Of a DNA stretch of 48,083 nt, positions 24,283 through 41,572 are shown in pieces (position 1 is the first letter of the stretch; each line of letters starts with the position of its first letter). The stretch is taken from assembly GCA_944389545.1 (NCBI GenBank), contig CALXMT010000017.1, positions 1 to 48,083 on the forward strand. Direction: 5' to 3'. The position numbers and the translations under genes are program-made. The DNA comes from an uncultured Kiritimatiellota bacterium (GTDB taxonomy: Bacteria > Verrucomicrobiota > Kiritimatiellia > RFP12 > DVOR01). The notes under the pieces are model-generated. The model saw only the letters and a program-made list of their open reading frames with translations. It did not search any database and was not told the DNA's origin.

Positions 24283-24660
24283 GCTGATTGGCTGATTCGC
24301 TGATTGGAGGGGCGGCTGCTGCCGCCGGCAGGACTGCCAGTGTGTCTTAGAATCACAAAGGACACGAAGGACACAAAGCAAGCGGCGCAGGGGCGGGCCG
24401 TGCGTGCGCGTAAAGCGCACGTCCGGCCCGGGGGCCTGGAGGGGCATGGCGGGCTTCGCACGCCATGCTTTGGGGAAGGGCGCTGACGCGCCCACGGCCC
24501 AGCACGGCGTGTTCAGGAGATTCAGGAGATTCAGGAGATTCAGGAGATACAGGAGCGCCCCTATGGGGCGACGGGCGAGGCCGCTGTGCAAAGCGGCGTC
24601 AGCCGCAAAGGCCAAGCCTCCAAGCCTCTAAGCTTCCAAACTTCCGGGCGGCGGTGCCGC
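24283..24660. repeat. Repeat mosaic with exact 298-bp duplicated segment (block 9)
   Basis: No gene. CTGATTGG array, GGCGGC hairpin, GGACTGCCAGTGTG element, then 24351-24648, which is identical base for base to 26633-26930. The duplicated segment holds the AAGGACACG array, GCGCAC hairpins, GGGCATGGCGGGC region, GGGCGC hairpin, a four-unit TTCAGGAGA array, the CGCCCCTATGGGGCG hairpin and a TCCAAGCC array. Confidence 0.9.
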
Positions 24661-24672
24661 CCTTCGTGGAGA

Positions 24673-26020
24673 TTACGCCAGCGTTTCGACGAGGGCGTCG
24701 GAGAGGGTGTGGGTCTCGGATTGGAAGTTGAGGCCGATGAGGTGGATGGGTTTGCCGGAGGCGCGGTAGGGCTCGGCGTAGCCGTTGGCCTTAGGCTTCG
24801 CCCGTCGCCCCGCAGGGGCGTTCCGTTCTCTGTTCTCCGTTCTCCGTTCTCTGGGGTGGCGTCAGCCGCCCCTCCCCGGCTGCGTATTGGAGGAGGAGGG
24901 AGTTGAGGTCGATGCGCACCTCTTCGTTGGGTACGCCGAGGATGAAGTACGGATTCTTGAAGTCCTTGATGGTGAGGTAGCCGCTTTGATAGAGCATCGA
25001 GACCGGTTGGATGGCCTTCAGGTTGCAGATGTCGAGCGTACTCTCCGAGACTCCGCGGACATTCTCGTAGTCGCGCTTCTCGATGTCGTGCATGGTGAGG
25101 TAGTTGATCAGTGCGGAGGGCCGACCGGTCTTCGGCCACGTGGGCGCGAAGGTCTTTCGTTTCAGTCCGATGGTCTTGGCAATGGCGACGGGATTGTAGA
25201 CCCGCGTTTCGCAATCCGGGGAGAAACGGTAGCCGTTGTACCAACGGCGAAGCTCTGCGCGGTAGTCCTCATAAGAGAGGCCCATCACCTGGGCGTGCTC
25301 ACGCATATCCTCATCGAAATTGGCGTCCAGCTCCTCTTCGCTGTAACCCAACAACGTGGCGTAGCGACTGTCCATCGTGAGGTCGTCGAGGTTGTTGAGC
25401 GCGGAGAAGACGGAGAGCTGGGTGAAGCGTGTCACGCCCGTCATCATCATGAACCGGATGTCGGAGGCGTTGTTCTTGATTTCGCCGTAAAAAGCGGAAA
25501 GCGTCGTGCGGATGGCCGTGGCCTTCGCGGGATCACTGAGCGCGGCGCTGACCGGCGCGTCGTACTCGTCAATCAAGACGACCACGGGCTTGCCACGCTC
25601 CCGGGCGAGAAAACAAATGGCATCGGCAAAGTTGTCGTTCGGTGCCTGCGTAGGGTCATAGGTGGCCCCGGCCTCCACGATGGAGCGCCGCACGCGCGCC
25701 ACAAAGCCGGCCTTGAACCCCTCGAGCGTCTCCACGTCCATCGTGGCAAAGTTGAAGTGCAGGATGGGATACTCCGTCCAGTCGTAGTCCATCTTGTCGA
25801 TGGCCAGGCCTTTGAAGAGGTCGCGCCGCCCACGGAAGATGCACTCCAGCGTGGAGAGCATGAGGGACTTGCCGAAGCGCCGCGGGCGGGAGATAAAGTA
25901 GAGGGCGTCGCCATCGCGCGTGACAAGGGGATAGAGCAGATCCGTCTTGTCCACATAACGATAGCCCTTCTCCCGCATGATGCGGAAGTCATAGACACCC
26001 TGTGCGATTTTCTGTCCCAT
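24673..26020 (-). pseudogene. AAA-ATPase-like/PD-(D/E)XK family gene with its nuclease core replaced by repeat DNA
   Basis: From the ATG at 26020 (AGGAG upstream) about 370 residues follow the AAA-ATPase-like family: DKTDLL, P-loop RPRRFGKS near 45-52, Walker B VVVLIDEYDAP, and the MMTGVTRF and YNGYRF motifs. The frame reads as far as LLLQYAAG, then enters mosaic sequence (encoding RTENGEQRTE) and stops at 24791-24793. Beyond the insert, in another frame, 24673-24789 encodes NGYAEPYRASGKPIHLIGLN and a further tail to TAA. That is the normal C-terminus of these proteins. The intervening 100 or so residues, which should carry the E, GRxD and ExK nuclease residues, are missing. The gene is therefore broken by replacement, not by simple truncation. 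Confidence 0.85.
24794..24885. repeat. Repeat mosaic block inside the ATPase pseudogene
   Basis: GGCTTCGCCCGTCGCCCCGC, the CCCCGCAGGGGC hairpin, a TTCTCTGTTCTCCG array and a GGCG/CGCC hairpin ending in CCCCTCC. These are the same words in the same order as in intergenic blocks (compare 6075-6152), here flanked on both sides by coding remnants of one gene. Confidence 0.85.
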
Positions 26021-26080: not shown

Positions 26081-26948
26081 TGCTGATTGGCTGATTAGCT
26101 GATTAGCTGATTGGGGGGCGCGCGGCAAGCGCGCGACGGGTGAAGCCGCTGAAAAAGCCAAGCCTCCAAACCTCTAAGCTTCCAAACTTCCACTAGGACT
26201 GCCAGAATGAGAAACCGCAGATTGCGGAAGAACACAGAGGCTCACGGAGGGTAACAGAGGAACACAGAGACGGGCGGCGTGCTGCCGCCGGCAGGACTGC
26301 CAGTGTGTTTTGGGAATCACAAAGGACACGAAGGACACAAAGGATTTGGCTGATTAGCTGATTAGGAGATTGGCTGATTGGAAAGGTGTGGGGCGCTGCC
26401 CCACACCCCGGCAGGGAGAAGTTCTCCCTGCACCCCCGGCACGTCTGCAACGTGCCAAAGGGCGCTGACGCGCCCCGGAGAACAGAGCGTGCAGGCGCAA
26501 CGCGCCAAACCTTCCACGGCTACGGAGAACAGAGCGCGCGGCAAGCGCGCGACGGGTGAAGCCGCTGAAAAAGCCAAGCCTCCAAACCTCTAAACTTCCA
26601 AACTTCCACTAGGACTGCCAGTGTGTTTTGGGAATCACAAAGGACACGAAGGACACAAAGCAAGCGGCGCAGGGGCGGGCCGTGCGTGCGCGTAAAGCGC
26701 ACGTCCGGCCCGGGGGCCTGGAGGGGCATGGCGGGCTTCGCACGCCATGCTTTGGGGAAGGGCGCTGACGCGCCCACGGCCCAGCACGGCGTGTTCAGGA
26801 GATTCAGGAGATTCAGGAGATTCAGGAGATACAGGAGCGCCCCTATGGGGCGACGGGCGAGGCCGCTGTGCAAAGCGGCGTCAGCCGCAAAGGCCAAGCC
26901 TCCAAGCCTCTAAGCTTCCAAACTTCCGGGGCGCGACAGCGCCCCTTA
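26081..26948. repeat. Repeat mosaic (block 10)
   Basis: No gene. Starts with a CTGATTGG/CTGATTAG array. It then holds a GCGCGC hairpin, TCCAAACT array, GGACTGCCAG element, CACGGAGG/CACAGAG array, AAGGACACG array, GTGGGGC hairpin, GGGAGAACTTCTCCC element, GGCACGTC hairpin, GGGCGC hairpin, the GGCGCAACGCGCC element, a second GCGCGC hairpin and array, then 26633-26930, which is identical to 24351-24648. It ends with a GGGGCGC hairpin just after tRNA-Arg. Confidence 0.85.
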
Positions 26949-27025
26949 TGGCGCGCCTGGAGGGGTTCGAACCCCCGACCCGCGGCTTAGAAGGCCGCTG
27001 CTCTATCCAACTGAGCTACAGGCGC
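26949..27025 (-). tRNA. tRNA-Arg (UCU)
   Basis: Minus-strand cloverleaf: acceptor GCGCCTG pairs with CAGGCGC, discriminator G, encoded CCA at 26949-26951. The anticodon stem GCGGC/GCCGC has loop CTTCTAA, giving anticodon TCT. The T arm is GGGGG/CCCCT-type with TTCGAAC loop. It begins 14 bp after the lptD stop on the same strand, with no clear promoter between, so it may be processed from the rodA-rng-lptD transcript. Confidence 0.95.
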
Positions 27026-27039
27026 AACAGGTGTATGTG

Positions 27040-29421
27040 TCATCGGTCGGCGAGGGAGGCCCAGTCCATCCAGTCTTCGTCTTCGTCGTGGGGGAAGGCG
27101 CGGAGCCAGAGGCCGAGGGAGATGCGGAAATCGGAGTCGTGTTTCCAGCCGTCGTCGGTGGTGTAGGAGGTGAGGTAGTCGACGTTGAGGCGGAGGGCGA
27201 TGCAGTCGAGGTTGTATTGGAAGAAGCCGCCGGTTTCTTCGAGGTCGCCGTCTTCGATGTTGTAGCGGACGTAGAGGGACCAGGCGAAGGTGTCGTTGAT
27301 GTGGTGGATGAAGCCGCCGTAGATGACGGAGTCTTTGATTTCGTCGGCCCAGTAGGAGTCGTAAATCTCGTGGTGGCGGCGGAGGTAGCCGGCGTAGAGG
27401 GTGATGGGGTGGAGGTCGTAGCGGACGTTGATGTCCCAGAGGGCGAGGCGGTTTTCCTCGGGGTCGTACTGGAAGTCGGTGGCGAGGGTGAGGGTGTCGG
27501 TGGGCTTGTAGGTGGCGTCGAGGCCGAGGACGCGGAGGCCGGTGTCTTCCTTCACGCGGCGGACGGGCCAGGAGAGGTTGTCGCGGCCGGGCTGGTCGTA
27601 GCGGCCCCAGCGGACCCACTGGTCTTGGGTGTTGAAGACCCAGACGCCATAGAGGTCGGCATCGAGGAGGGGGGAGAGGAGCTTGGTTTCGGGGTCGCGC
27701 TTTTGGATGATGTTTTTGAGGCCGAATCGGAGGCCGGCGTAGCGGTGGGAGGGGGTGAGGCCGTCGGAGCGGTAGCGGTCGCGCCACTCGTATTCTTGGT
27801 CGAGGCGGTCGAAGGCGTAGGGGCGGTCGTTGGGGCCGTCTTGGGAGCCGGGGACCCAGGTGAGGTCGAGGTAAGGGATGAGGGTGTGGCGGGTGGTGTC
27901 GTAGTCGCGCCAGATGCGGGCCTGGAGGGTGGCGCCGAGCTCGAAGAGGGAGCGGAAGAGGGCGTCGCCGTCGGGGGAGTCGGAGTAGTAGGTGCCGCGC
28001 CAGCCGAGGCGTGGGGTGAGGGTGAGGCCTTCGGTGAGGGTGATGGGGCGGCGGAGGATGTGGCGGGAGTCGACGCGGAAGGTGTCGTAGTAGGCCCAGT
28101 TGCCGAGGCGGTAGGCGTAGCGGGGGTCCCAGGTGCCGTCGTACTTGGCGGGCTGTCGGCGGAGCCAACCGGCGGTGTTTTGGGATTCGTAGTAGAGGCG
28201 GGGGATGCCGAGGGCGGGGCGGGGGAGGATGTCGAGGCGGGCTTCGGGGAGGCGGCGGACGCCGGCGTAGAAGGTGTCGAGGGGGCCCATGAGGGCGAGG
28301 GAGGCGGCCCAGTCGTTCTCGCGGTGTTCGTAGTTGACGATGCCGAGGGGCTGGGAGGAGGCGCGGACGGCGTTTTGCTTGTAGTCTTCGCGGAACTCGG
28401 AGTCGCTGACCTTTTCGCCGGTGATGTGGAGGAAGTCGCGGGGGGAGAATTGGAGGCGCTCGGTGAGGCCGATGGACCAGCGGTGGTGGTCGTAGGTGGA
28501 TTGCCAGTTGTAGTCTTCGGGCTCTTGGTCGTCGGTGTCGTAGGCGTAGTAGAGGGAGAGTCGGCCCCACTGGTGGGTGTCTTCGCCGAAGATGCCTTCG
28601 GAGGACCAGGTGAGCTCTTGGCCGAGGCCGACGCCGCGCTTGGAGCGGAGGTCGAGCTGGGAGCGGCCGTAGAGCTGGTTGCCGGAGATGGGGTTGCCGG
28701 CGATGGGGTAGACGTAGCCGAGGCAGAGGTAGGCGCCCCACTTGCTGGTGTAGCCGGGGTTGATGCGCCAGCCGTAGTGGGTGTTGAGGTCGCGGTAGTA
28801 GTAGGGGAACCAGAGGACGGGGATGCCGAAGAGGCGGGCGGTGGCGTCGCGGAGCTCGACGAATTCGCCGTCTTTGTAGCGGCCGGTGCCGGTGACGGAC
28901 CAGTGCCAATCGGCCTCGGGGTTGGCGCAGGTGGTGAGGGAGGCTTGGTCGGCGTGGAAGACGCCGTCCTCGTCGCGGGTGGCGCCGTTGGGGGCCTTGG
29001 CGGTGAATTCGCCGAGGCGGAGGAGGCCGGCGCCCATGAGGCCCTGGCCGGTGATGCGGTTGAAGTCGATGGCGTCGCCGTCCCAGGCGCCGCCGGCGGT
29101 GGAGCGCATGCGGACGTTGCCTTCTGCGTGGATGTCGCCGGTGCGCTGGTCGTAGGTGGCGTGGTCGCAGGTGAGGGTGATGTCGGAGAAGAGGATGACG
29201 ACGTGGCCATCGAGGGTGGCGCGGCCGGACTTCTGGTCGGCGCCCATGCGGTCGGCGGAGACTTGGATGTCGCCGTCGCGGCGGAGGGCGTCCAGGCCGA
29301 GGGCAGCGCGGACGGTGGCCTCGGGGTCGTTGCCCTGCGGCGCGGCGCGGAGGGTCGCGGCGGCGAGGAGGAGTGCGGCGAGGGCGAGTGCGGCGCGCGC
29401 GGCTGGGATGGGGTGGTGCAT
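27040..29421 (-). CDS. lptD: LPS-assembly outer-membrane protein LptD
   Basis: The protein has 793 residues. A signal peptide (about 1-27, alanine/leucine-rich, ending LRAA) directs it across the inner membrane. An OstA/LptA-like jellyroll domain follows (about 50-130; segments ADRMGADQKSGRATLDG and HAEGNVRM), then a long beta-barrel region to the end rich in W, Y and alternating polar residues, with the LptD-typical stretch FGIPVLWFPYYYRDL near 215. LptD with LptE inserts lipopolysaccharide into the outer leaflet, so this organism has an LPS outer membrane. It is the third gene of a minus-strand operon: 19 bp after rng, with tRNA-Arg following. The four cysteines that form disulfides in Escherichia coli LptD are not obviously conserved. 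Confidence 0.9.
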   Translation of the reverse strand: MHHPIPAARAALALAALLLAAATLRAAPQGNDPEATVRAALGLDALRRDGDIQVSADRMGADQKSGRATLDGHVVILFSDITLTCDHATYDQRTGDIHAEGNVRMRSTAGGAWDGDAIDFNRITGQGLMGAGLLRLGEFTAKAPNGATRDEDGVFHADQASLTTCANPEADWHWSVTGTGRYKDGEFVELRDATARLFGIPVLWFPYYYRDLNTHYGWRINPGYTSKWGAYLCLGYVYPIAGNPISGNQLYGRSQLDLRSKRGVGLGQELTWSSEGIFGEDTHQWGRLSLYYAYDTDDQEPEDYNWQSTYDHHRWSIGLTERLQFSPRDFLHITGEKVSDSEFREDYKQNAVRASSQPLGIVNYEHRENDWAASLALMGPLDTFYAGVRRLPEARLDILPRPALGIPRLYYESQNTAGWLRRQPAKYDGTWDPRYAYRLGNWAYYDTFRVDSRHILRRPITLTEGLTLTPRLGWRGTYYSDSPDGDALFRSLFELGATLQARIWRDYDTTRHTLIPYLDLTWVPGSQDGPNDRPYAFDRLDQEYEWRDRYRSDGLTPSHRYAGLRFGLKNIIQKRDPETKLLSPLLDADLYGVWVFNTQDQWVRWGRYDQPGRDNLSWPVRRVKEDTGLRVLGLDATYKPTDTLTLATDFQYDPEENRLALWDINVRYDLHPITLYAGYLRRHHEIYDSYWADEIKDSVIYGGFIHHINDTFAWSLYVRYNIEDGDLEETGGFFQYNLDCIALRLNVDYLTSYTTDDGWKHDSDFRISLGLWLRAFPHDEDEDWMDWASLADR

Positions 29422-29440
29422 GGGCGTGAGGGGGCTGGGG

Positions 29441-31021
29441 TCAGACGGCGTGGCTTTCCGAGACGGCGTAGAGGACCTTGCCGTTCTTGTCGAGGATGGC
29501 GAAGGACTCGGGGTGGCGGGCGACCTCGCTCTTGAAGGTGAGCTTGCCGGAGTAGCGGCGCTGCATTTCGACGAGCATCTGCTCGTCTTCGTTGCGGAGG
29601 CGCTCCATGACGGAGGGGGAGACGAGGACCTGGAGCTCGGTTTCGCCGGGGTCGCCCTGGAAGCGGCGCATGACGGCGGCGATCTGGCGCTGGATGTCGA
29701 CGGAGATGGCGAGGGGGCTCTTGATGACGCCGTGGCCCTTGCAGTAGGGGCAATCGATGTACATCTGGGAGAGGAGGCTCTCTTCCTGGCGCTGGCGGGT
29801 CATCTCCATGAGGCCGAGCTCGGAGATGGGGAGGACGTTGGTGCGGGCGCGGTCGCGGCGGAGGGCGGCCTTCATGGCCTTGTAAATCTGGTTCTGGTGC
29901 TTGCGGCTCTTCATGTCGATGAGGTCGATGACGACGAGTCCGCCGATGTTGCGCAGGCGCATCTGGCGGGCGACCTCTTCGACGGCCTCGGTGTTGACCT
30001 CGAGGATGGCCTCTTCCTGGGAGCCGGTGCCGCGGTGGCGGCCGGTGTTGACGTCAATGGAGATGAGGGCCTCGGTCTCGTCGATGACGAGGTAGCCGCC
30101 GCTCTTGAGGTCGACCTTGCGGCGGAAGGCGGCCTCCATCTGGGCCTCGACGCCGTAGTGATCGAAGATGGGGAGGTGGCCTTTGTAGAGCTCGATGACG
30201 CGGCGGGCGCGGCGGGAGATGCGGCCGGCGACCTCGCGGATGCGGGCGTAGGCGGCCTCGTCGTCGATGGTCACGCGGTCGATGTCTTCGGTGAGCCAGT
30301 CGCGGACGACGCGCTCGACGAGGTCGGGCTCGGAGTAGACGCAGGCGGGGGCGCGCATGGTCTTGATGTTGTTCTGGAGCTGGCCCCAGACGTCGAGGAT
30401 GTTGCGGAGGTCGCGGCAGAAGGCGCGCTGGTTGGCGCCGGAGCCGACGGTACGGACGATGATGCCGACGCCGGGGGGCAGGGGGAGACGGTCGAGGATC
30501 TTCTTGAGGCGGAGGCGCTCCTTGCCGTCGGCAATCTTGCGGGAGACGCCGCGGGTGGCCTTGGCCGAGGGCATCATGACGAGGTAGCGGCCGGGGAGGG
30601 AGAGGTTCGCGGTGACGCGGGGGCCCTTGGTGCCGATGGGGCCCTTGGTGACCTGGACAACGATGTCGCTGCCGGGGGGGAAGCGCTTCTCGATCTCTTC
30701 GTTGGAGATGCGGCGGCGGCGGGACTGGCGCCCGCCCTCCTCTTCATCGAGGAGGCCGCTCTCATCGGGGAGCATGTCCCAGTAGTGAAGGAAGGCGTTC
30801 TTTTTGAGACCGATATCGACGAAGGCGGCCTGGAGGTCGTGCTCCAGATTTTGGATGCGGCCCTTGAAGACGCACCCGACGAGGCGCTCCTCCATGGGGT
30901 GCTCCACCTGGAATTCCTCAACGCGGCCATTTTCCACAACGGCCACGCGGGTCTCCAGCTTTTCCACGTTCACCACAATCTCGCGCTTCTTCGTCTTCCG
31001 CTTAAATAGCCAGCCAAACAT
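29441..31021 (-). CDS. rng: Ribonuclease E/G family endoribonuclease
   Basis: The protein has 526 residues from the ATG at 31021; a TTG at 31027 is less likely because AGGA is 7 nt from the ATG. The S1 RNA-binding domain is at about 45-130 (GCVFKGRIQN, AFVDIG), with an insertion rich in D, E and R at 84-115. The catalytic domain carries the two metal-binding aspartates D323 (SIDVNTG) and D366 (VVIDLIDM), equivalent to D303 and D346 of Escherichia coli RNase E. The zinc-link CPYC is at 424-427, followed by the small domain. It lacks the long C-terminal degradosome scaffold, so it is RNase G-like in length. It lies between rodA (24-bp gap) and lptD (19-bp gap). Role: rRNA maturation and mRNA decay. 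Confidence 0.93.
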   Translation of the reverse strand: MFGWLFKRKTKKREIVVNVEKLETRVAVVENGRVEEFQVEHPMEERLVGCVFKGRIQNLEHDLQAAFVDIGLKKNAFLHYWDMLPDESGLLDEEEGGRQSRRRRISNEEIEKRFPPGSDIVVQVTKGPIGTKGPRVTANLSLPGRYLVMMPSAKATRGVSRKIADGKERLRLKKILDRLPLPPGVGIIVRTVGSGANQRAFCRDLRNILDVWGQLQNNIKTMRAPACVYSEPDLVERVVRDWLTEDIDRVTIDDEAAYARIREVAGRISRRARRVIELYKGHLPIFDHYGVEAQMEAAFRRKVDLKSGGYLVIDETEALISIDVNTGRHRGTGSQEEAILEVNTEAVEEVARQMRLRNIGGLVVIDLIDMKSRKHQNQIYKAMKAALRRDRARTNVLPISELGLMEMTRQRQEESLLSQMYIDCPYCKGHGVIKSPLAISVDIQRQIAAVMRRFQGDPGETELQVLVSPSVMERLRNEDEQMLVEMQRRYSGKLTFKSEVARHPESFAILDKNGKVLYAVSESHAV

Positions 31022-31045
31022 CGTCAAATCCTGTAAAAGTGTCTG

Positions 31046-32242
31046 TCAGTGCCGGAATACCGCCTGAGCGGCGCGCCCATGGATCGCCACGCTTTGGAGC
31101 ACGCCCATGGCCATCATCATCACGAGCATGAAGGTCCCGCCCTGACTGATGAACGGCAGGGGCAGCCCGGTGATGGGCACAATCCGCACTGTCATTCCTA
31201 TATTAATAAAAACGTGGCAAAATAGCAAGGTCACCACCCCCACGCAGAGGAGGCGCCCCACGTCGTCATGGCACCGCATGCCGATGATCAGACCGGGGAC
31301 GAAGATGCCCAGGAGGTAGACCGCCAGGAGGGCGATGGCGCCCGCGAAGCCCGTCTCCTCGGCCATGACGGGGAAGATGAAGTCGTTCATGCTCACAGAG
31401 GGAGGGAGATATTGCAAGCGGTGCTGGACGCCCCGGCCATAGCCCTTGCCCCAGACGCCGCCGCTGCCGACGGCGATTTCGCTCTGGTAGACGTTGTAGC
31501 CGTTGCCGAGGCGGTCGCGCTCGGGATAGAGGAAGGTCTCCAGACGCTCCACCTGGTGTTCGCGCAGACCGGTGCAGGCGAGGAGGAGTTCGCGTCGCTC
31601 GGGCGGGGTGTCCTCGGCCATCGCCACCTTGACCATCGTCATCTCGTAGCCCACCGCCACAACGAGCGCCACGAGGCCCGCGCAGAGGAGCCGCGGCGAG
31701 ACCCGCGCCGCAAAGAGCATCGCCAGGACCGTCGGGCCCAAGACCAGCGCCGTGCCGAGGTCGGGCTCCGCCAGGATGAGCAGCGCCGGCACCGCCGTCA
31801 GAAGCAGGCAGGCGACCAGACCCCGCACCGTCCGCATCCACGCCTTGCCCTTGCCCAAGAGCCAGGCCAGCAGGACGATGATGGCGAGTTTGGCCGGTTC
31901 GCTCGGCTGCAGGCCGAAGAGCCACCGCCGCGCGCCCATGATCTCCTCGCCGATGCCGGGAATCAAGACCAAGACCAACGCCACCAGGATGCCGCCATAG
32001 GCCCACGGCGCCAGACGCGCCCAGCGGCGGTAGTCCCACAGGGCCAACCCCGCCATGAGGAAGACGCCCAGGATGGCAAACTCCGCCTGTCCCTTCCAGG
32101 CCACCTGCACCACGGCTTCCTCGCGCGATTCGCACGCGGACTTGACGAAGGCCACACCGGCCACCGCCAAGAGCAACGTGGCCCCCAGCAGCACCCAATT
32201 CACGCGCCGCAGCAAGTCCCAAAGCCGTTTTCGGTCAAACAT
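31046..32242 (-). CDS. rodA: RodA, SEDS peptidoglycan polymerase
   Basis: The protein has 398 residues with about ten hydrophobic segments, starting MFDRKRLWDLL. SEDS signatures are present: NDFIFPVMAEETG in the large loop and the C-terminal GLPLPFISQGGT motif. RodA polymerises glycan strands with PBP2 during lateral wall growth, so the cell probably elongates as a rod or ovoid. It is the first gene of the minus-strand rodA-rng-lptD operon. The ATG at 32242 follows TATACT (32250-32255) by only 7 bp and no Shine-Dalgarno fits between, so the mRNA is probably leaderless. The promoter abuts a mosaic hairpin. Confidence 0.93.
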   Translation of the reverse strand: MFDRKRLWDLLRRVNWVLLGATLLLAVAGVAFVKSACESREEAVVQVAWKGQAEFAILGVFLMAGLALWDYRRWARLAPWAYGGILVALVLVLIPGIGEEIMGARRWLFGLQPSEPAKLAIIVLLAWLLGKGKAWMRTVRGLVACLLLTAVPALLILAEPDLGTALVLGPTVLAMLFAARVSPRLLCAGLVALVVAVGYEMTMVKVAMAEDTPPERRELLLACTGLREHQVERLETFLYPERDRLGNGYNVYQSEIAVGSGGVWGKGYGRGVQHRLQYLPPSVSMNDFIFPVMAEETGFAGAIALLAVYLLGIFVPGLIIGMRCHDDVGRLLCVGVVTLLFCHVFINIGMTVRIVPITGLPLPFISQGGTFMLVMMMAMGVLQSVAIHGRAAQAVFRH

Positions 32243-32249
32243 GCCGCAT

Positions 32250-32285
32250 AGTATAGCACAGGGGGCGCAGGGGCGCCCCCTGTGC
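32250..32285 (-). promoter_or_regulatory. rodA promoter fused to a perfect 13-bp hairpin
   Basis: GCACAGGGGGCGC (32256-32268) pairs perfectly with 32273-32285 around AGGG. On the minus strand the hairpin ends TGTGC and TATACT (32255-32250) follows immediately, 7 bp before the rodA ATG. Confidence 0.7.
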
Positions 32286-33144
32286 TGCTGATTGGCTGAT
32301 TCGCTGATTGACTGATTGGAGGGCGCGCGGCAAGCGCGCGACGGGCGAAGCCGCTGAACAGAGGTGGAGTGTTTTTCGGGAAAACACGAAGGACACGAAG
32401 AACCACAAAGGTACACAAAGAGCACGACACAGGGGAACCGCAGATTGCACAGATTTTGAGCAGATTAAGGGCGTGCTAGCGCACGCAGGACTGCCAGTGT
32501 GTTTTGGGAATCACAAAGGACACGAAGGACACAAAGGGCACAAAGGATATTTGGGAGCTTGGAAGTTTGAAGGTTTGGAAGCTTAGGCGGATTGGTGGGG
32601 CGCTGCCCCACGCCCCGGCAGGGAGAAGTTCTCCCTGCACCCCCGGCACGTCTGCGACGTGCCATAACACGACGTGGTAGGACATATAGGACGTATAGGA
32701 CATATAGGACGGCGGCTGCGCCGCTCAGCAGAACGGTTTGTTTGTCGCCCCGCAGGGGCGCTCCTGCATCTCCTGGCCCAGGCCGTGTGCGCCTCCGGCG
32801 CCTTTCTCCCCAAAGCATGGCGTGCGAAGCCCGCCATGCCCCTACAGGCCCCCGGGCCGGACGTGCGCCTTGCGCGCACGCACGGCCCGCCTATGCGCCG
32901 TTCTTTGTGTCCTTTGTGTCCTTTGTGATAAAACCCGACAGTTTTCTCTGTGAGTCTCTGTGAAACCCTCTGTGTCCTCTGTGATCTAAAAACAAACTGG
33001 CAGTCTTCGTGTCCTTCGTGACCATCTAAAAATACTCCACTTCTCTCCAGCGGCTTCGCCGGTCGCCCCGCAGGGGCGCTCTGTTCTCCGTGGCCGTGGA
33101 AGGTTTGGCCCTTTGTGCCTGCACGCTCTGTTCTCCGTTCTCCA
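32286..33144. repeat. Repeat mosaic (block 11)
   Basis: No gene. CTGATTGG/CTGATTCG array, GCGCGC hairpin, AAGGACACG arrays, AGATT(G/T)...CAGATT array, GCGTGCTAGCGCACGC hairpin (32471-32486), GACTGCCAGTGTG, TTGGAAG array, GTGGGGC-type hairpin, GGGAGAACTTCTCCC, GGCACGTC hairpin, GGACATATA/GGACGTATA array, CCCCGCAGGGGC hairpin, CTGCATCTC, GGCGTGCGAAGCCCGCC hairpin, TTTGTGTCC array, CTCTGTGA array, GGCCCTTTGTGCC element, and a CTGTTCTCCG array running to the next promoter hairpin. Confidence 0.85.
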
Positions 33145-33173
33145 GGGCACCGCAGGTGCCCTTATGGTATACT
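33145..33173 (+). promoter_or_regulatory. Hairpin plus extended -10 promoter of the phosphatase operon
   Basis: GGGCACC (33145-33151) pairs with GGTGCCC (33155-33161) around GCA. TTATGG then leads into TATACT (33168-33173). Only 7 bp separate the -10 from the ATG at 33181, indicating a leaderless mRNA. Confidence 0.65.
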
Positions 33174-33180
33174 AAGGGGC

Positions 33181-33831
33181 ATGGATACACCGACGCTTTT
33201 CTTTGATTTGGACGGGACGTTGATCGATTCCCGTGGAGATATCGCCAACAGCGTGAATCTGACGCGCGCGGATTATGGTCTGCCGCCGTTGCCGCTTGAG
33301 GACGTAACCAAGATGGTGGGCAATGGGGCGCGGCAGCTGATGTTGCGCGCGATGCCGGATTATGAGGACCGTCTGGACGAGATTGTGGCGAACAACAAGC
33401 GTCAGTACGCGGAGCACTTGGTGGAGCGCACGTTCATGTATCCGGGCGTGCCGGAGGGCCTGGCGGAGCTGAAGGCGCTGGGGTGCCGCATGGCGGTGAC
33501 GTCGAACAAGACGTCGGCGCATATCCCGCGGATCTTGGAGACGTTGGGCATCTTGAAGTACTTTGACGTGACGGTGGGCGGCGGCGACGTGCCGGAGCTG
33601 AAGCCCGCGCCGGACCTGCTCTACCTGGCGGCCCAGCGGATGGGCGTGGAGGTGCGGCCGACGGATTGGGTGATCGGCGACCATTACACCGATCTGCAGG
33701 TGGGCCGCCGCGCGGGCGTGAAGGTGTGCCATTGCGCCTATGGCTTCGGTCAGCCGCGCGGGGAGCACTTCGATGTGGAGGTGCAGGACCTGCGGGACTT
33801 CGCGGCCTATCTGCGGGAGCGGCTTGCGTGA
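33181..33831 (+). CDS. gph: HAD-family phosphatase, phosphoglycolate phosphatase type
   Basis: The protein has 216 residues with the four HAD motifs: FFDLDGTL with nucleophile Asp9 and acid Asp11; VTSNKT (motif II Ser/Thr) near 103; the lysine of ELKPAPD near 140; and VIGDHYTD, the Mg-binding aspartates, near 164. A helical cap lies between motif I and II. Best match is Gph-like phosphatases, which remove phosphate from 2-phosphoglycolate formed in DNA repair; exact substrate is inferred. The ATG at 33181 lies 7 bp after the -10, with no Shine-Dalgarno, so translation probably begins on a leaderless mRNA. The TGA overlaps the GTG of the next gene, so the two are translationally coupled. Confidence 0.85.
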   Translation: MDTPTLFFDLDGTLIDSRGDIANSVNLTRADYGLPPLPLEDVTKMVGNGARQLMLRAMPDYEDRLDEIVANNKRQYAEHLVERTFMYPGVPEGLAELKALGCRMAVTSNKTSAHIPRILETLGILKYFDVTVGGGDVPELKPAPDLLYLAAQRMGVEVRPTDWVIGDHYTDLQVGRRAGVKVCHCAYGFGQPRGEHFDVEVQDLRDFAAYLRERLA

Positions 33832-34697
33832 GGTTCGGACGCACGGCGTGGTTTGTGGCGGTGGGCGCGGCGTTGTGCGCGGCGGCCGTCGCCTCGGCCA
33901 TGCTGTGCACGCGGCAGGTGTTGCCGCCGGGCGCGGGGGGGCCAAAGGCGCTCCTGGCGGGTCTGGGCGGGAGCCGCGGCATCCTGGCGGAGGTCTTGTG
34001 GTATCGCATCAACACGTTGCAACGCGAGGGGCGCTACGCCGAACTGGGGATGCTCACGGAATATCTCGTCGGGCTGGACCCGGCGAACACGGAGGCCTGG
34101 GCCTTCAACGCGTGGAACCTGGCCTACAACGTGAGCTATGAGCATGCCGACGTGGAGGAGCAGTGGCAGTGGATTCTGCGCGCGCAGGATTTGCTGGACC
34201 GCGGCCTGGAGGCCAATCCGGAGAACCCCGCCCTGTTGCGTCAGCAGGGATGGATTTGGGAGCACAAGGTGGGCGGCATCCGCGAGGAGCGTCCGCCGCA
34301 CGACTACCCCAAGGAGAACCAGGCCTTCCGCGAGCGGACGGCCGCCCTGCCCCCGCCGCCGACGGCCACCGCGCTCGAGGCCGTGATGCACACGCGGGGC
34401 GACTGGGGCAATCCCAAACTGCGCGCGCTGGACTGTTACTTCCGCGCAGGGCTCTATGGGGACGCGCTCCGGGCCCTCAACAGTTACCTCTCCGACCTGC
34501 CGCCGCCGGCGCGGCCGGGTCTCTTCCCCTTCTTTGGCGCGCTGTATGCCGCCGCCGAGCCCACCCTCACCTTTGCGGAAATAGGAAACGCCCTTGCGCT
34601 GGCTGAGCGGTTGCTGGAGGATTACCCCGGCGACCGCGCCCTGCAGGCCGTGCGCAACCACGCGCGCAACACGCTGATTCAGGAGAACGCACCATGA
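33828..34697 (+). CDS. Membrane-anchored TPR-like protein of unknown function
   Basis: The protein has 289 residues from a GTG at 33828 that overlaps the stop of the phosphatase gene (GTGA). An N-terminal hydrophobic helix (about 8-27, alanine-rich) suggests a membrane anchor or uncleaved signal. The rest is alpha-helical with tetratricopeptide-like pairs: LTEYLVGLDPANTEAWAFNA near 79-98, ILRAQDLLDRGLEANPENPA near 122-141, and a final LAERLLEDYPGDRALQAV. It is likely periplasmic or membrane-facing with a binding role. The stop overlaps the next gene by ATGA. I do not recognise a named family. Confidence 0.75.
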   Translation: MRFGRTAWFVAVGAALCAAAVASAMLCTRQVLPPGAGGPKALLAGLGGSRGILAEVLWYRINTLQREGRYAELGMLTEYLVGLDPANTEAWAFNAWNLAYNVSYEHADVEEQWQWILRAQDLLDRGLEANPENPALLRQQGWIWEHKVGGIREERPPHDYPKENQAFRERTAALPPPPTATALEAVMHTRGDWGNPKLRALDCYFRAGLYGDALRALNSYLSDLPPPARPGLFPFFGALYAAAEPTLTFAEIGNALALAERLLEDYPGDRALQAVRNHARNTLIQENAP

Positions 34698-35569
34698 TCC
34701 GAACCATCGGCGAAACCGTCGTCGCCTTCGACTGCGAATGGATCCCGGACGCCAACGCCGCCCGCGCCCTCTTCCCCGACGCCGCCGACCTCCCCGAGGA
34801 CGCGCTCCTGGAGCGTCTCTGGGCGCACAACGGCGCGACCGCCGAGGACCCCCACCCCTTCGTGCGGCTGATGCAGAGCCGCGTGGTCTCCGTGGCCATG
34901 CTCATGCGCTCCGCCCCGAAGGTCAACGGCGGCGACCCCGAGCTCCGCCTGGTGTGGTTGCCCAAGGACCCGGACGACCCCGCGCACCGCGCCGAACGCA
35001 AGGTGGTGGGCTCCTTCCTGGCCGCCATCGGGCGCAGCCAGCCCCAGCTCGTGGGCTTCAACTCCCGTTCCGCCGACCTGCGCATCCTGGCCCAGCGCGC
35101 CCTCGCCCTCGGCATCCCCGCCAAAGGCTTCCTCAGCCACCCCACCAAGCCGTGGGAGGGCGTCGACTACTTCGCGCGCGACAACGATTGCTCCATCGAC
35201 CTGATGGACCTCATCGCCGGCGGCTTCTCCGGCCGCGCCGCGGCGCTCTCCCTCCACGAAGCCGCCACCCTCTGCGGCATCCCCGGCAAGTTCGACGCCC
35301 ACGGCGACCAGGTGCTCGACCTCTGGCAACAGGGCCGTTACCGCGAAATCGTGCAGTACAACTGCTACGACGCCATCACCACCTATCTCCTTTGGCTCCG
35401 CCTCGCCTGGGTCTCCGGTCGCTTCCAGAACGACCAATACGAGGCCGAGCAGACCCTCGTCCGCGAATACCTCATGGGCCTCTGCGACGAGCCCGCCACC
35501 GCCTTCCTCGAACCCTATCTCATGGAGTGGGACCGCCTCACCGACCTCCGCGAACGCTATCCTATGTGA
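34694..35569 (+). CDS. Predicted 3'-5' exonuclease, PolB-exonuclease-like (DEDDy)
   Basis: The protein has 291 residues. DEDD-fold residues appear in order: D13 and E15 in FDCEW, D128 in VGFNSRSADLRIL, and the YxxxD pair Y222/D226 in QYNCYDAITTYLL. This matches the exonuclease family related to the DNA polymerase B proofreading domain, without a polymerase domain. A DNA repair or RNA/DNA trimming role is inferred. It is the third gene of the phosphatase-TPR-exonuclease operon, starting inside the stop of the previous gene (ATGA). Its own stop TGA (35567-35569) lies in the 5' stem of the first mosaic hairpin. Confidence 0.88.
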   Translation: MIRTIGETVVAFDCEWIPDANAARALFPDAADLPEDALLERLWAHNGATAEDPHPFVRLMQSRVVSVAMLMRSAPKVNGGDPELRLVWLPKDPDDPAHRAERKVVGSFLAAIGRSQPQLVGFNSRSADLRILAQRALALGIPAKGFLSHPTKPWEGVDYFARDNDCSIDLMDLIAGGFSGRAAALSLHEAATLCGIPGKFDAHGDQVLDLWQQGRYREIVQYNCYDAITTYLLWLRLAWVSGRFQNDQYEAEQTLVREYLMGLCDEPATAFLEPYLMEWDRLTDLRERYPM

Positions 35570-35586
35570 GCGCCACCGGCGCTCAC
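35566..35586. repeat. Inverted repeat containing the exonuclease stop codon
   Basis: GTGAGCGCC (35566-35574) pairs perfectly with GGCGCTCAC (35578-35586) around ACC. The stop TGA is at 35567-35569 inside the 5' arm. The GAGAACGG mosaic array follows directly. Confidence 0.8.
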
Positions 35587-36560
35587 GGAGAACGGAGAAC
35601 GGAAAACGGAGAACGGAACGCGCGGCAAGCGCGCGACGGATGGAGCCGCTGGGAGAATGTGGAAGGTTTACCCTGCGGGGCTGACACGAAGAACACGAAG
35701 GACCACAAAGGTACACGAAGGGGAAAACGCAGATTGCGGAAGAACACAGAGGCTCACGGAGGGTAACAGAGGAACACAGAGACGGGCGGCGTGCTGCCGC
35801 CGGCAGGACTGCCAGTGTGTTTGGGAATCACAAAGGACACGAAGGACACAAAGGATTTGGCTGATTAGCTGATTAGGAGATTGGCTGATTGGAAGGATGT
35901 GGGGCGCTGCCCCACGCCCCGGCAGGGGAAGGGGCGCTAGCGCGCCCCAGAGAACAGAGCGTGCAGGCCCAAAGGGCCAAACCTTCCACGGCCACAGAAA
36001 ACAGAAAACAGAGCGCGCGGCAAGCGCGCGACAAAACAATCGTTGTGCAGAGAAACCAAACTTCCAAGCATCCAAGCTTCCAAACTTCCAACTGCCCCTG
36101 CACCGGCGGCACGTCTGCGACGTGCCAAAGGGCGCTGACGCGCCCCGGAGAACAGAGAACAGAGCGTGCAGGCGCAACGCGCCAAACCTTCCACGGCCAC
36201 GGAGAACAGAGCGTGCAGGCGCAACGCGCCAAACCTTCCACGGCCACAGAGCGCCCCTACGGGGCGACAGGCGAAGCCGTTGCACAAAGCGGCGGCAACC
36301 GCAAAGGCCAAGCCTCCAAGCCTCTAAGCTTCCAAGCTTCCACTAAAGGCGCACGTCCGGCCCGAAGGGCCTGGAGGGGCATGGCGGGCTTCGCACGCCA
36401 TGCTTTGGGGAGTTGGGCGCCGGAGAGGAGTCTTTCAAGAGACTCACAGAAACGCAAGGGATGGGGATAGGGAGTGAGGCGCAACGCGCCGAACGGTGAA
36501 GTGCCCAAGCCCTTGCGTTCCTTTTGTGTCTTCGTGGAAACTGGCACCGTTCTCCAGGGC
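35587..36560. repeat. Repeat mosaic (block 12)
   Basis: No gene. GAGAACGG array, GCGCGC hairpin, AAGAACACG arrays, CACGGAGG array, GACTGCCAGTGTG, CTGATTAG array, then about 35896-36132, which is the inverted copy of 395-632. The GGCGCAACGCGCC/AACCTTCCACGG element then appears twice in tandem (36168-36202 and 36211-36245). A CGCCCCTACGGGGCG hairpin, TCCAAGCC array, GGGCATGGCGGGC hairpin, an inverted copy of the 3150-3240 segment and a final GGCGG hairpin complete it. Confidence 0.85.
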
Positions 36561-36674
36561 GGCGGAGCCGCCCTTTCGCCCTTACCTTATTATATAGCAG
36601 ATGTAGAGGCCATCTGCCTCCTAGGAAAGGGGGGCGGGAGGGTCTGTGGAGGGGCCTTTAAGGGGGCTTTCTGA

Positions 36675-36781
36675 GACCCTATAAGGGTCCGAGGTCAACC
36701 ACTATAGTGGTCGAGGGTGAGACCCTATAAGGGTCGGGGGCGAGACCCTATAGTGGTCCGTGGGCGACCACTATAGGGGTC
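36675..36781. repeat. Array of five CTATA-centred palindromes
   Basis: Near-palindromes of the form GACCCTATAAGGGTC or ACCACTATAGTGGT begin at 36675, 36697, 36721, 36744 and 36766, spaced 22-24 bp. The outer bases switch between CCC/GGG and CCA/TGG. The spacers are also similar (CGAGGTCA, GAGGGTGA, GGGGGCGA, CGTGGGCGA). It is unlike the other mosaic words and could be a multi-site operator or a tandem expansion. Confidence 0.85.
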
Positions 36782-36985
36782 CGCGAAGGGAGGATTGGCG
36801 CCGCGGGGAAATCAAGCCTCCCAAGGCCCCTTTCCGCGTGCGCCGGCACGTCAAAATCTGCGACAATCCGCGGGATCTGCGGTTTTCACTCTGGCAGTCC
36901 TGCGTGCGCTAGCACGCCCTTAATCTGCAACAAATCTGTGAAATCTGCGGTTTCCAAGCGGTTTTCTTGTGATTTTTGGTGTGTG
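36782..36985. repeat. Residual mosaic words before the acpP terminator
   Basis: Contains CACTCTGGCAGTCCTGCG, the GCGTGCGCTAGCACGC hairpin (36902-36917) and AATCTGC...AAATCTG arrays. No gene is seen in this stretch. The preceding 36561-36674 holds a GCAGATG/CATCTGC hairpin (36597-36617) after a TTATTATATAG stretch, and is otherwise featureless. Confidence 0.6.
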
Positions 36986-36990
36986 GGTAC

Positions 36991-37030
36991 AAAAAAAAAG
37001 CCGCCGTGCGCGGGGGCGCACGGCGTGGCT
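36991..37030 (-). terminator. Intrinsic terminator of the fab operon
   Basis: On the minus strand GCCGTGCGC and GCGCACGGC form a strong stem, followed by nine T residues (36999-36991). It ends about 26 bp after the acpP stop. Confidence 0.9.
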
Positions 37031-37055
37031 CGATCAGGGTTGGGGGAACCCGCCA

Positions 37056-37298
37056 TTAGTCGGCGGTGATGCCCTTGTCCGTGAGGTACTTGATGACGGA
37101 GCCGACGGTGGTGAGCTTCTCGGCATCCTCATCGGGGATCTCGGCGCCGAACTCTTCTTCGAAGGCCATGATGAGCTCGACCTGGTCGAGGGAGTCGGCG
37201 GAGAGGTCGTCGATGAAGGAGGCTTCGGGGGTCACCTGGGCGGCGTCCACGCCGAGCTGATCGACGATGATGTCTTTGACTTTCTGTTCGAGGGACAT
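37056..37298 (-). CDS. acpP: Acyl carrier protein
   Basis: The protein has 80 residues, acidic and helical, with the phosphopantetheine attachment site Ser36 in ADSLDQVEL. It carries growing acyl chains in fatty acid synthesis in the cytoplasm. AAGGAG precedes the ATG at 37298. It is the last gene of the coaD-DUF177-rpmF-plsX-fabD-fabG-acpP series. A GC hairpin lies between fabG and acpP, and a strong terminator follows. fabF, which often comes next, is absent. Confidence 0.97.
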
Positions 37299-37324
37299 GT
37301 TCTGTGCTCCTTGGGGTTGTTTAG

Positions 37325-37341
37325 GCCCCCACGGAGGGGGC
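37325..37341 (-). terminator. Short GC hairpin between fabG and acpP
   Basis: GCCCCC (37325-37330) and GGGGGC (37336-37341) pair around 5 nt. No T-run follows on the minus strand. It may act as an attenuator or mRNA-end stabiliser that sets ACP levels apart from the upstream genes. Confidence 0.35.
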
Positions 37342-37361
37342 TCGGTTGTGAAAGGGGTGGG

Positions 37362-38126
37362 TTAGAAGGCCATGCCGCCGCTGACGGCGAGGGTCTGGCC
37401 GGTGATGTAGGCGGCCTCGTCGGAGGCGAGGAAGCGGATGGCCTTGGCGACGTCTTCGGGCTCGCCGAGGGCCTGGAGGGGGATCATCTGGGCCATTTTG
37501 TCCTTGGCCTCTTGGGAGAGGACTTCGGTCATTTTGGTCTTGATGAAGCCGGGGGCGACGGCGTTGCAGCGGATCTTCTTCTTGCCGTATTCCTTGGCGA
37601 AGGTCTTGGTGAAGTTGATCACGCCGGCCTTGGCGGCGCCGTAGTTGGCCTGGCCGACGTTGCCGAAGAGGCCGATGACGGAGGCGGTGTTGACGATGCA
37701 GCCGCCGCAGGGCTTGCCATCGGGGCCCTTGTTCTTGCCCATGGGGCGGATGACGGCCTTGGAGAAGAGGAAGACGGACTTGAGGTTGGTGGAGAGGACG
37801 GCATCCCACTCGGCCTCGTCCATGCGGAGGAGGAGGTTGTCGCGGGTGATGCCGGCGTTGTTCACCAGGATGTCGAGGCGGCCGAGCTGGTCGACGGTGG
37901 CCTTGACGGCGGCTTCGACCTGGTCGGCCTTGGAGACGTCGCACTGGATGGTGATGACGCGGTGGCCGTAGGCCTCGACCTGGGGCTTGGCGGTCTCGAG
38001 GAGGGCGGGGTTGAAGTCGAGGAGGGCGACGTCGGCGCCGCATTCGGCGAAGGCCTTGGCGGTGGCCAGGCCGATGCCGCCGCCGGAACCGGTGACGAGG
38101 GCGACTTTGCCGGAGAAATCGTACAT
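37362..38126 (-). CDS. fabG: 3-oxoacyl-[acyl-carrier-protein] reductase
   Basis: The protein has 254 residues and is a short-chain dehydrogenase. The NADPH-binding TGSGGGIG is at 12-19, NNAG at 89-92, and the catalytic triad is S149, Y162 and K166. It reduces 3-oxoacyl-ACP to 3-hydroxyacyl-ACP. A loop KNKGPDGKPCGGC at 131-143 is longer than in Escherichia coli FabG. It lies 13 bp after fabD and before acpP, confirming the fatty-acid role among the many reductases of this fold. Confidence 0.93.
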   Translation of the reverse strand: MYDFSGKVALVTGSGGGIGLATAKAFAECGADVALLDFNPALLETAKPQVEAYGHRVITIQCDVSKADQVEAAVKATVDQLGRLDILVNNAGITRDNLLLRMDEAEWDAVLSTNLKSVFLFSKAVIRPMGKNKGPDGKPCGGCIVNTASVIGLFGNVGQANYGAAKAGVINFTKTFAKEYGKKKIRCNAVAPGFIKTKMTEVLSQEAKDKMAQMIPLQALGEPEDVAKAIRFLASDEAAYITGQTLAVSGGMAF

Positions 38127-38139
38127 GGCGTGACCTTTC

Positions 38140-39057
38140 TTAGGCGGTGACTTTGGGGAGGGCGGCCTCGAGGGTGGCCGTATCCTGGATGTTGGCGACG
38201 GCGTTGGCGCGGTCGATGCGGCGGATGAGGCCGGAGAGGACCTTGCCGGGGCCGAGCTCGAGGAAGAGGGCGCCGGGCTTCATGACGGCTTTGACACAGT
38301 CGGAGAAGTGGACGGGGCTATCGACCTGGCGGAGCATGGCGGCCTTGATGGCCTCGCCGTCGTTCTCGTGGAAGGTGCCGGAGGCATTGGAGAGGACGGG
38401 GATTTGGGGGGTGCCGAAGGGGATGTCCTTGACGAACTCGGCCAGGCGCTCGCGGGCGGGGGTCATGAAGGGGGAGTGGAAGGCGCCGGCGACCTGGAGG
38501 ACAACGTTCTTGATGCCCTGGGCGGCGGCGAGCTCGGCGGCCTTGGCGACGGCTTCGTGGGTGCCGGAGATGACCTGCTGGCTGTCGGAATTGATGTTGG
38601 AGACGGTGCAGCCGGAGCCTTCGCAGATGGCGGTGAGCTGCTCGGGGGTGGCGCCCATGATGGAGATCATGCCCGAGGGCTTGGCCTCGCAGGCTTCCTG
38701 CATGTACTTGCCGCGGGCCTGGAGGATGCGCAGGGTGGTCTCGAAATCGAGGACGCCGGCGGCGCAGAGGGCGGTCCACTCGCCGAGGGAGAGGCCGGCG
38801 GCGGCGGTGGCGGGCACCTCGCAACGCTTGCGGAAGGCGGTGTGGCAGGCCATGGAGACGGTGAAGATGGCGGGCTGGCAGACGTCGGAGCGGGTGAGGG
38901 CTTCGGCGGGGCCTTCGAAGCAGAGCTTCTTGAGGTCAAAGCCGAGGACGTCGTTGGCCTTGTCGAAGAGGGCCATGATTTCGGGATCGGCCTCGGCGAG
39001 GTCTTTGCCCATTCCGGGGAACTGGGCGCCCTGTCCTGCGAAGAAGAGGTTCAACAT
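38140..39057 (-). CDS. fabD: Malonyl-CoA:ACP transacylase
   Basis: The protein has 305 residues. GQGAQFPGMG is at 8-17, the nucleophile elbow GLSLG with Ser90, and the catalytic His194 in GAFHSPFM. The usual GHSLGE reads GLSLGE here, a change beside the nucleophile. The enzyme moves malonyl from CoA to ACP. It lies 30 bp after plsX. A candidate internal promoter overlaps the plsX end. In many bacteria fabH sits between plsX and fabD, but here it is missing. AAGGAAG supports the ATG at 39057. Confidence 0.95.
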   Translation of the reverse strand: MLNLFFAGQGAQFPGMGKDLAEADPEIMALFDKANDVLGFDLKKLCFEGPAEALTRSDVCQPAIFTVSMACHTAFRKRCEVPATAAAGLSLGEWTALCAAGVLDFETTLRILQARGKYMQEACEAKPSGMISIMGATPEQLTAICEGSGCTVSNINSDSQQVISGTHEAVAKAAELAAAQGIKNVVLQVAGAFHSPFMTPARERLAEFVKDIPFGTPQIPVLSNASGTFHENDGEAIKAAMLRQVDSPVHFSDCVKAVMKPGALFLELGPGKVLSGLIRRIDRANAVANIQDTATLEAALPKVTA

Positions 39058-39084
39058 GTCTACTGCTTCCTTTCTTGGCCCTAT

Positions 39085-39113
39085 AGTTTAGCGGTTTTCC
39101 GCGGCGGTTTCAA
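39085..39113 (-). promoter_or_regulatory. Candidate internal promoter for fabD inside the plsX 3' end
   Basis: On the minus strand TTGAAA (39108-39113) and TAAACT (39085-39090) are spaced 17 bp. The -10 includes the plsX stop codon TAA. The same TAAACTAT word serves the 1459-residue secreted-protein gene. Confidence 0.45.
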
Positions 39114-40209
39114 CCGGGCGCTGACCGTGATGGCCGATGAGCTCCGTAAGTTCCTCATCCGTAGGGGGTTCTGGGAGCGCGGCGATGCGCTCGGCGATTT
39201 CCTTGGAGACGTTGTGCGCGGCGGCGCGGGAGCCGGCGGCGCAGGCGTAGGCGATGGCCTTGTGGGTGGAGGAACCGTGGGTGATGATGACGGCGCCGGG
39301 GACGCCGAGGAGGGGCGCGCCACCGTAGACCTCGGGGTCCATGTGGTGGCGGAGGCGCTTGAGCGCCGGCACCAGGGGGAGGGCGGCCAACTTGTAGAGG
39401 AAGTTGCCGAAGACGATGCGCTTGAGCCAGTAGCCGATGGCGTGGGCGGCGCTTTCGGAGGTCTTGAGGATGACGTTGCCGATGAAGCCATCGCAGACGA
39501 TGACGTCGGTCTTGCCCTCGAAGACGTCGTGGCCTTCGACGTTGCCGCGGAAGGTGATGCCCGGGGTGTAGTCGCGCAGGAGGGGGAAGGCGTGCTTGGT
39601 GAGCTCGTTGCCCTTGGAATCCTCGGTGCCGATGGACATGAGGCCGACGACGGGCTTTTCATGGCCCAGGACCAGGCGGCTGTAGATGTCGCCCATCACG
39701 GCGAACTCGCGGAGCCACTCGTGGTGGCAGTCGGTGTTCGCGCCGGCGTCCAACAAGAGGGTGGGACGATCCGGGTCCTTGGAGGGCATGACGGTGGCGA
39801 TGGCCGGGCGGGCGACGCCCTTGATGCGCCCGAGGATGAAGAGGGCGCTGGCGGCCATGGCACCGGAGTTGCCGGCGGAGACGGCGGCATCGGCCTTGCC
39901 TTCCTTGACCAGGCGCATGCAGACATTGATGGAGCAGTTCTTTTTCCTGCGCACGGCCGCGGCGGGGGCATCGTCCATCGCGATGGATTCATCGGTGTGG
40001 AGGATGCTCAGGCGGCCGTTGGCCATCAACGCCTCAACGTCCGGGATGGGGCGGATTTTGGGATGGCGATGGCGGAGCGCCTTGCGGATCTCCGCCTCGT
40101 TGCCCACGAGGATGACGGAATCCTGCGTCTGCGCGGCGGCGAGGGCGCCGCCCCAGACGATTTCATAGGGCGCGTTGTCGCCGCCCATTGCATCGAGCGC
40201 TATCCGCAT
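39088..40209 (-). CDS. plsX: Phosphate acyltransferase PlsX
   Basis: The protein has 373 residues beginning MRIALDAMGGDNAP, the PlsX N-terminal signature. Further motifs: SAGNSGAMAA near 110, LDAGAN near 155, VCDGFIGN near 242, and a glycine-rich late segment. PlsX converts acyl-ACP to acyl-phosphate, the first step of phospholipid synthesis by the PlsX/PlsY route. The gene is in the conserved rpmF-plsX arrangement, 56 bp after rpmF. AAAGGGG precedes the ATG at 40209. Confidence 0.95.
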   Translation of the reverse strand: MRIALDAMGGDNAPYEIVWGGALAAAQTQDSVILVGNEAEIRKALRHRHPKIRPIPDVEALMANGRLSILHTDESIAMDDAPAAAVRRKKNCSINVCMRLVKEGKADAAVSAGNSGAMAASALFILGRIKGVARPAIATVMPSKDPDRPTLLLDAGANTDCHHEWLREFAVMGDIYSRLVLGHEKPVVGLMSIGTEDSKGNELTKHAFPLLRDYTPGITFRGNVEGHDVFEGKTDVIVCDGFIGNVILKTSESAAHAIGYWLKRIVFGNFLYKLAALPLVPALKRLRHHMDPEVYGGAPLLGVPGAVIITHGSSTHKAIAYACAAGSRAAAHNVSKEIAERIAALPEPPTDEELTELIGHHGQRPVETAAENR

Positions 40210-40265
40210 CGCTATCGACCCCTTTGCAATCTGGTCTCAGGATTCGGGTTGGCCGGGGGCCGCGG

Positions 40266-40454
40266 TCACTCCGCGGCCTCAGCCTCCTGCTTGATGACCT
40301 GGCGGCCGTCGTACTGACCGCAGGCGGGGCAGGCGCGGTGGGCCAGGCGGGTGGCGCCGCACGCGCACTTCACGGTGCCGGGGACGGCGGCCTTGATCTG
40401 GCCACGACGCTGGCGGACACGCATTTTGGACTTCTTCCGTTTCGGGACTGCCAT
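40266..40454 (-). CDS. rpmF: 50S ribosomal protein bL32
   Basis: The protein has 62 residues starting MAVPKRKKSK, the bL32 signature. Cysteines lie at 30, 32, 42 and 45 (KCACG and ACPACG). The first pair is CxC rather than the usual CxxC of zinc-type L32, one residue short, so zinc binding may be altered. The linkage to DUF177 upstream and plsX downstream is the classic arrangement coupling ribosome and lipid synthesis. Confidence 0.95.
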   Translation of the reverse strand: MAVPKRKKSKMRVRQRRGQIKAAVPGTVKCACGATRLAHRACPACGQYDGRQVIKQEAEAAE

Positions 40455-40497
40455 GATTCGCTCTCTTTCTTTCTGATAAGCGCTGGGTTGCTCTCAC

Positions 40498-41509: not shown

Positions 41510-41519
41510 GATGGCCCTT

Positions 41520-41572
41520 AGTATACCAAATTGTTAGCTTTTCGTCAGAGGCGCCGGGGTGCCCTGACGAAA
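41520..41572 (-). promoter_or_regulatory. coaD operon promoter with mirrored mosaic hairpin
   Basis: On the minus strand CTGACG (41543-41548) and TATACT (41520-41525) are 17 bp apart, with TTGG before the -10. TTTCGTCAG (41540-41548) is the inverted copy of CTGACGAAA (41564-41572), with an inner GGCGCC/GGTGCC pairing. The mosaic thus ends in a hairpin that mirrors the native -35 region. Confidence 0.65.

Follow-up and report, generated by a model that had tools for sequence, protein, structure and literature searches.

The window, i.e. the whole stretch of 48,083 bp analysed here, belongs to contig C17 of the draft genome of an uncultured gut bacterium (G000; 2.53 Mb in 61 contigs). The features under study (Table 1) centre on a gene for a DUF1703-type protein. 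The DUF1703 family is defined by the combination of an AAA-ATPase_like domain (PF09820) with a PDDEXK_9 nuclease (PF08011) (PMC1913061), and it is expanded in Cardinium cCpun (PMC6387759). The window gene has kept the first domain (Pfam, E = 1.5e-54), while a Pfam search of its open reading frame did not detect PDDEXK_9. The C-terminal PD-(D/E)XK nuclease typical of the family is present in the orthologue of a sister species and in the intact paralogues, and the window gene is a broken DUF1703 member. PADLOC and NCBIfam gave no match that would identify the protein as part of a defence system. Behind LNSLLLQYAA the reading frame passes into GEGRLTPPQRTENGEQRTERPCGATGEA, which consists of mosaic repeat words, and it ends at a stop codon created across the junction of insert and remnant. 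The true C-terminus begins with KANGYAEPYRASGKPIHLIGLNF and lies in a frame different from that of the AAA part. This remnant still resembles the end of PF08011 weakly (positions 74-102; E = 0.006, which misses the cut-off).

Table 1. Features of the broken DUF1703 gene and its surroundings (positions in the window)
Feature	Position	Strand	Remarks
Mosaic block downstream of the gene	24350..24649	+	300-bp direct repeat, identical to the block at 26632..26931
C-terminal remnant of PDDEXK_9, out of frame	24673..24792	-	113/113 identity to the G003 orthologue over 24680-24792
AAGGCCAA, candidate 3'-junction microhomology	24785..24792	-	8-mer also opens a common mosaic word (e.g. at 24608, 26890, 36304)
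AAA-ATPase_like ORF, nuclease lost	24791..26020	-	409 aa; final 28 residues from the mosaic insert
Mosaic repeat insert	24793..24877	-	85 bp in place of 306 bp (102 codons) of nuclease sequence
Probable gene-conversion patch from another paralogue	24965..25226	-	Holds 27 of the 31 differences between the retained gene and G003
Mosaic block upstream of the gene	26632..26931	+	Second identical 300-bp direct repeat (100%)

The endpoints of the event were defined by comparison to the positional orthologue in G003, a sister species of the same genus (L097 4787-6355), which encodes 522 aa and possesses both domains. The orthology is one of position, since the two genomes, which elsewhere share approximately 96% identity, have in common the gene itself, the mosaic downstream of it and the beginning of the gene that follows. 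The counterpart of the insert in G003 is L097 4907-5212, a stretch that starts on a codon boundary and contains the catalytic motifs GRADIV...FELK. On both sides of the scar the sequences are identical (113/113 and 86/86 positions) before the first difference occurs. The net change of -221 bp causes the frameshift in the window gene. The event is a replacement, composed of a deletion and an insertion; a clean insertion of mosaic is ruled out by the 306 bp that are missing in comparison to the orthologue. This bears out the initial annotation, which had read from the window alone that the frame runs into mosaic words, that the C-terminus resumes in another frame and that coding sequence had been replaced. 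Its estimates of about 90 bp inserted and about 100 residues lost were close to the exact figures of 85 bp and 102 residues. The objection already considered there, that some family members might naturally lack the nuclease region, is ruled out at the window locus by the intact G003 orthologue; in other copies, the nuclease was lost very close to this position, in one case without any filler. Because an intact orthologue with near-identical flanks exists, the endpoints are exact and the scar can be traced into other loci. Such pairs of states before and after the replacement of coding DNA by a repeat block are valuable for the study of bacterial repeats.

The insert consists of genuine mosaic vocabulary. 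In G000, the intergenic DNA is filled with short hairpins and tandem words of 7-9 bases, and approximately 50 places are related to the insert, with neighbouring words that differ at every copy. The related copies reach up to 93% identity, and DNA similarity and pattern searches revealed no exact donor beyond the scar on contig C18 that is described below. One hairpin word occurs 170 times in G000, 75 times in G003 and at most six times in other congeners, and it has no occurrence in the remaining 24 genomes searched. It is also found in bins of uncultured Kiritimatiellaeota and in Candidatus Spyradenecus faecavium, the genus of which is placed in the Lentisphaerota by NCBI. Within the window, the form GTGCAGG-N9-CCAAACCTTCCACGG is located at 26489-26519, with approximately 11 further sites; the stem varies and the pairing is mostly kept (CGC/GCG, CCC/GGG, TGC/GCA). 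A search for RNA families matched the tRNA only and none in the mosaic. That long direct repeats, as seen around the window gene, flank the gene cassettes as a rule was rejected, as this applies to a minority of the 26 family copies only.

At the junctions, the initial annotation had suspected microhomology with GGCTTCGCC or CCCCTCC. Neither is a contiguous identity between mosaic and intact gene, and this idea was dropped, since the intact junction sequence gives it no support. The 8-mer AAGGCCAA at the 3' junction appears to be the better candidate. The 5' junction shows little or no identity, and no donor was found in which the words stand in the order of the scar, the nearest being a single arrangement on contig C16; the founding step can therefore only be inferred.

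In G000, 26 copies of the family have a complete N-terminal part, and 22 of these are intact (approximately 523 aa). The initial annotation had proposed to define the endpoints by means of intact paralogues; they were fixed via the G003 orthologue. Four copies are devoid of the nuclease. The exact 3' junction of the scar is present at three places in G000 (C17, C18 and C4) and in none of the 29 relatives searched. The C18 copy (from position 2542) carries the same scar at 97% identity; the insert differs by three substitutions, and the 5' edge is not quite the same. The N-terminal part of the C18 copy has clearly diverged from the window gene, the flanks of the locus differ, and at the equivalent locus G003 possesses a full-length family member adjoining the same neighbour. 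On C4, the junction belongs to an orphan C-terminal fragment preceded by mosaic. This fragment is a chimera, which changes just past the junction from the subfamily of the window gene (KANGYAEPYR) to another subfamily (RHSGKEVHL), and the chimeric nature of this third copy suggests that the scar was probably passed between gene copies by recombination. The simplest reading of these sequences is that the scar was founded once and that paralogues then recombined. Since the flanks in the window equal those of G003, yet the C18 insert differs by three substitutions, the C18 copy cannot be the recent donor unless further changes arose afterwards. It is possible that a third copy is missing or that the scars on C17 and C18 go back to two independent events. 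The retained part of the window gene probably contains a conversion patch as well, and over 25150-25226 L002 agrees at 68 of 77 positions versus 55 of 77 for G003.

The Cardinium family resembles the one described here in its two-domain architecture, in the Walker A motif RPRRFGKS and the Walker B motif DEYD, in the number of paralogues (approximately 25), in the presence of AAA-only and nuclease-only genes, and in frequent recombination among paralogues (PMC6387759). However, the partial genes of Cardinium are located at scaffold borders and are suspected artefacts (PMC6387759), whereas the partial gene in the window lies inside its contig, has an intact orthologue and contains a filler of repeat DNA. 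Partial DUF1703 genes can thus be real and are not merely the ends of assemblies.

Because the scar has probably travelled by recombination between paralogues, the view of the initial annotation that the locus gives direct evidence of the mobility or of a repair-linked origin of the mosaics is too strong. The 3' junction is shared by three related copies of a single genome, the third of them a chimera; its later spread would be due to recombination of homologous genes and not to movement of the mosaic, and the founding event itself cannot be seen. Neither mobility nor a repair origin is established as directly proven. The other proposal of the initial annotation, that mosaics can fill broken coding DNA, is supported for the DUF1703 family, in which further nuclease fragments, on C37, C3 and C4, border on mosaic words as well.

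Since neither a RAYT transposase nor Ku was found in the genus, we favour an ectopic repair assisted by microhomology, with later gene conversion, which we consider probable, if only by a little. The starting point would be an ordinary DUF1703 gene with AAA+ module and PD-(D/E)XK nuclease, one of the 26 copies. A break or a stalled fork in the linker between the two modules might have been repaired, or replication restarted, from a wrong template. The broken ends would have engaged mosaic repeats, which abound in the rest of the genome, and an identity of few bases (with AAGGCCAA as the candidate at the 3' end and almost none at the 5' end) probably assisted in this. In the process, a mosaic segment of 85 bp would have been copied in at the expense of 306 bp of nuclease sequence. 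Either the whole scarred allele or its 3' junction would then have spread among the paralogues by homologous recombination and given rise to the copies on C18 and C4. We infer the break, the copying from a template and the order of transfer between the copies. The C16 copy, which lost its nuclease without any filler, speaks against a repair of this kind. A scar of Ku-dependent end joining was rejected, as Ku had no match in 17 genomes.

Templated insertions are known from alternative end joining and template switching, mainly in eukaryotes. The window scar is similar to them in that a deletion is combined with an insertion resembling other places of the genome, and in that the junctions have a short microhomology or none. 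It differs from them in that it occurs in a bacterium without a Ku match, and in that the mechanism would be deduced from a single founding scar.

A different route to the same structure would be the recombination, in shared words, of two already broken copies, one an AAA part with mosaic at its end and the other a C-terminal orphan with mosaic at its start, whose product then converted the window allele. Orphan C-terminal fragments behind mosaic do exist on C4, C37 and C3, and whole mosaic blocks have been swapped between G000 and G003. However, both flanks in the window are native and equal to G003 up to the junctions, and three steps would be required, which makes this route unlikely. As a separate observation, the orphan nuclease fragments at C37:14828-15088 and C3:129348-129584 start almost alike (TCTAGCGGCTTC) behind different mosaic words, and the 3' end of the C37 fragment runs into GGCTGATT repeats.

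It is also conceivable, though rather unlikely, that nuclease loss at the linker is recurrent, either by selection of AAA-only forms or because the linker is a hot spot of breakage, and that the mosaic is incidental. Losses that look independent lie no more than a few residues apart in the copies on C17/C18, C3 and C16 and on contig C90 of genome G008. On C16 the nuclease was lost cleanly, with GCCGAA on both sides, and on C3 mosaic and a second nuclease fragment follow behind the loss. AAA-only genes also occur in Cardinium (PMC6387759). Four copies in G000 (L004, L019, L021 and L023) have DDYDAP instead of DEYDAP as Walker B motif and TRYVPD instead of TRFTQL. The nuclease is absent in three of the four DDYDAP copies versus one of the 22 others (Fisher p = 0.006). 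However, these copies have a common ancestry and recombine with one another, so that they are not independent. Moreover, the G008 copy lost its own N-terminal part together with the nuclease core, and the G003 copies are full length among the matches listed. Matches on contigs C14 and C6 of G003 and on C210 of G008, which seemed to combine gene and mosaic, turned out not to be this gene.

The mosaics share with REP, BIME and REPIN sequences the combination of high-copy short palindromes with other short motifs in intergenic DNA, and the hairpin word with its 170 copies and covarying stem is a palindromic unit of this type. Since REPs and BIMEs have been linked to RAYT transposases in other bacteria (PMC2817692, PMC3116915), a mosaic or hairpin unit might have transposed into the gene, with an adjoining deletion thereafter. 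This is improbable: Y1_Tnp, the RAYT domain, had no match in G000 and 10 congeners (11 genomes of the genus), on which grounds an insertion driven by RAYT was rejected; there is no target duplication and 306 bp are missing; and the words beside the insert differ at each copy. The mosaics also differ from BIMEs and REPs by their many more kinds of words, including arrays of 7-9-base tandem words, and the insert described here interrupts a coding gene, where target sequence was lost. Neisserial intergenic mosaic elements (NIME, dRS3), from an unrelated organism, may be a parallel, as they too are intergenic mosaics of short repeats; they have been linked to genome rearrangement (PMC9778887).

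An assembly artefact, which had been raised in the initial annotation, is hardly credible, because the scar recurs in the C18 paralogue, with substitutions of its own and between other flanks, and the 3' junction recurs on C4; the genome is a draft of 61 contigs with several paralogues at contig ends and an identical 300-bp repeat on both sides of the gene, but the scar is located in unique DNA between these repeats and its 85-bp insert lacks an exact second copy.

Overall, the event represents a fresh form of known things, namely a nuclease family with many recombining copies and the mosaic repeats of bacteria, and the locus can serve as a test case for the spread of mosaics where neither RAYT nor Ku is found. 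As a tentative and rather doubtful generalisation, the mosaic repeats of this genus might not be transposons but a pool of hairpins and short tandem words that are favoured as templates when breaks are repaired faultily, and that spread by being copied into the breaks without RAYT or Ku. They would rewrite the intergenic DNA from one sister species to the other and now and then replace coding DNA, and the resulting scars would be passed among paralogues.

Beyond the gene, the stretch 26940-41549 is syntenic with G003, with genes that are approximately 94-96% identical and mosaic blocks that are exchanged wholesale. At 26932-26948, inside a mosaic block, the left side matches contig C3 of G003 and the right side (tRNA-Arg and an LptD-like gene) contig C5, which represents either a synteny break or a misjoin. 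At 35653-36560, a mosaic block of 908 bp stands opposite 216 bp of other mosaic words in G003 (C5), while the genes around it are 94-96% identical; the turnover of the mosaic is far faster than that of the genes.
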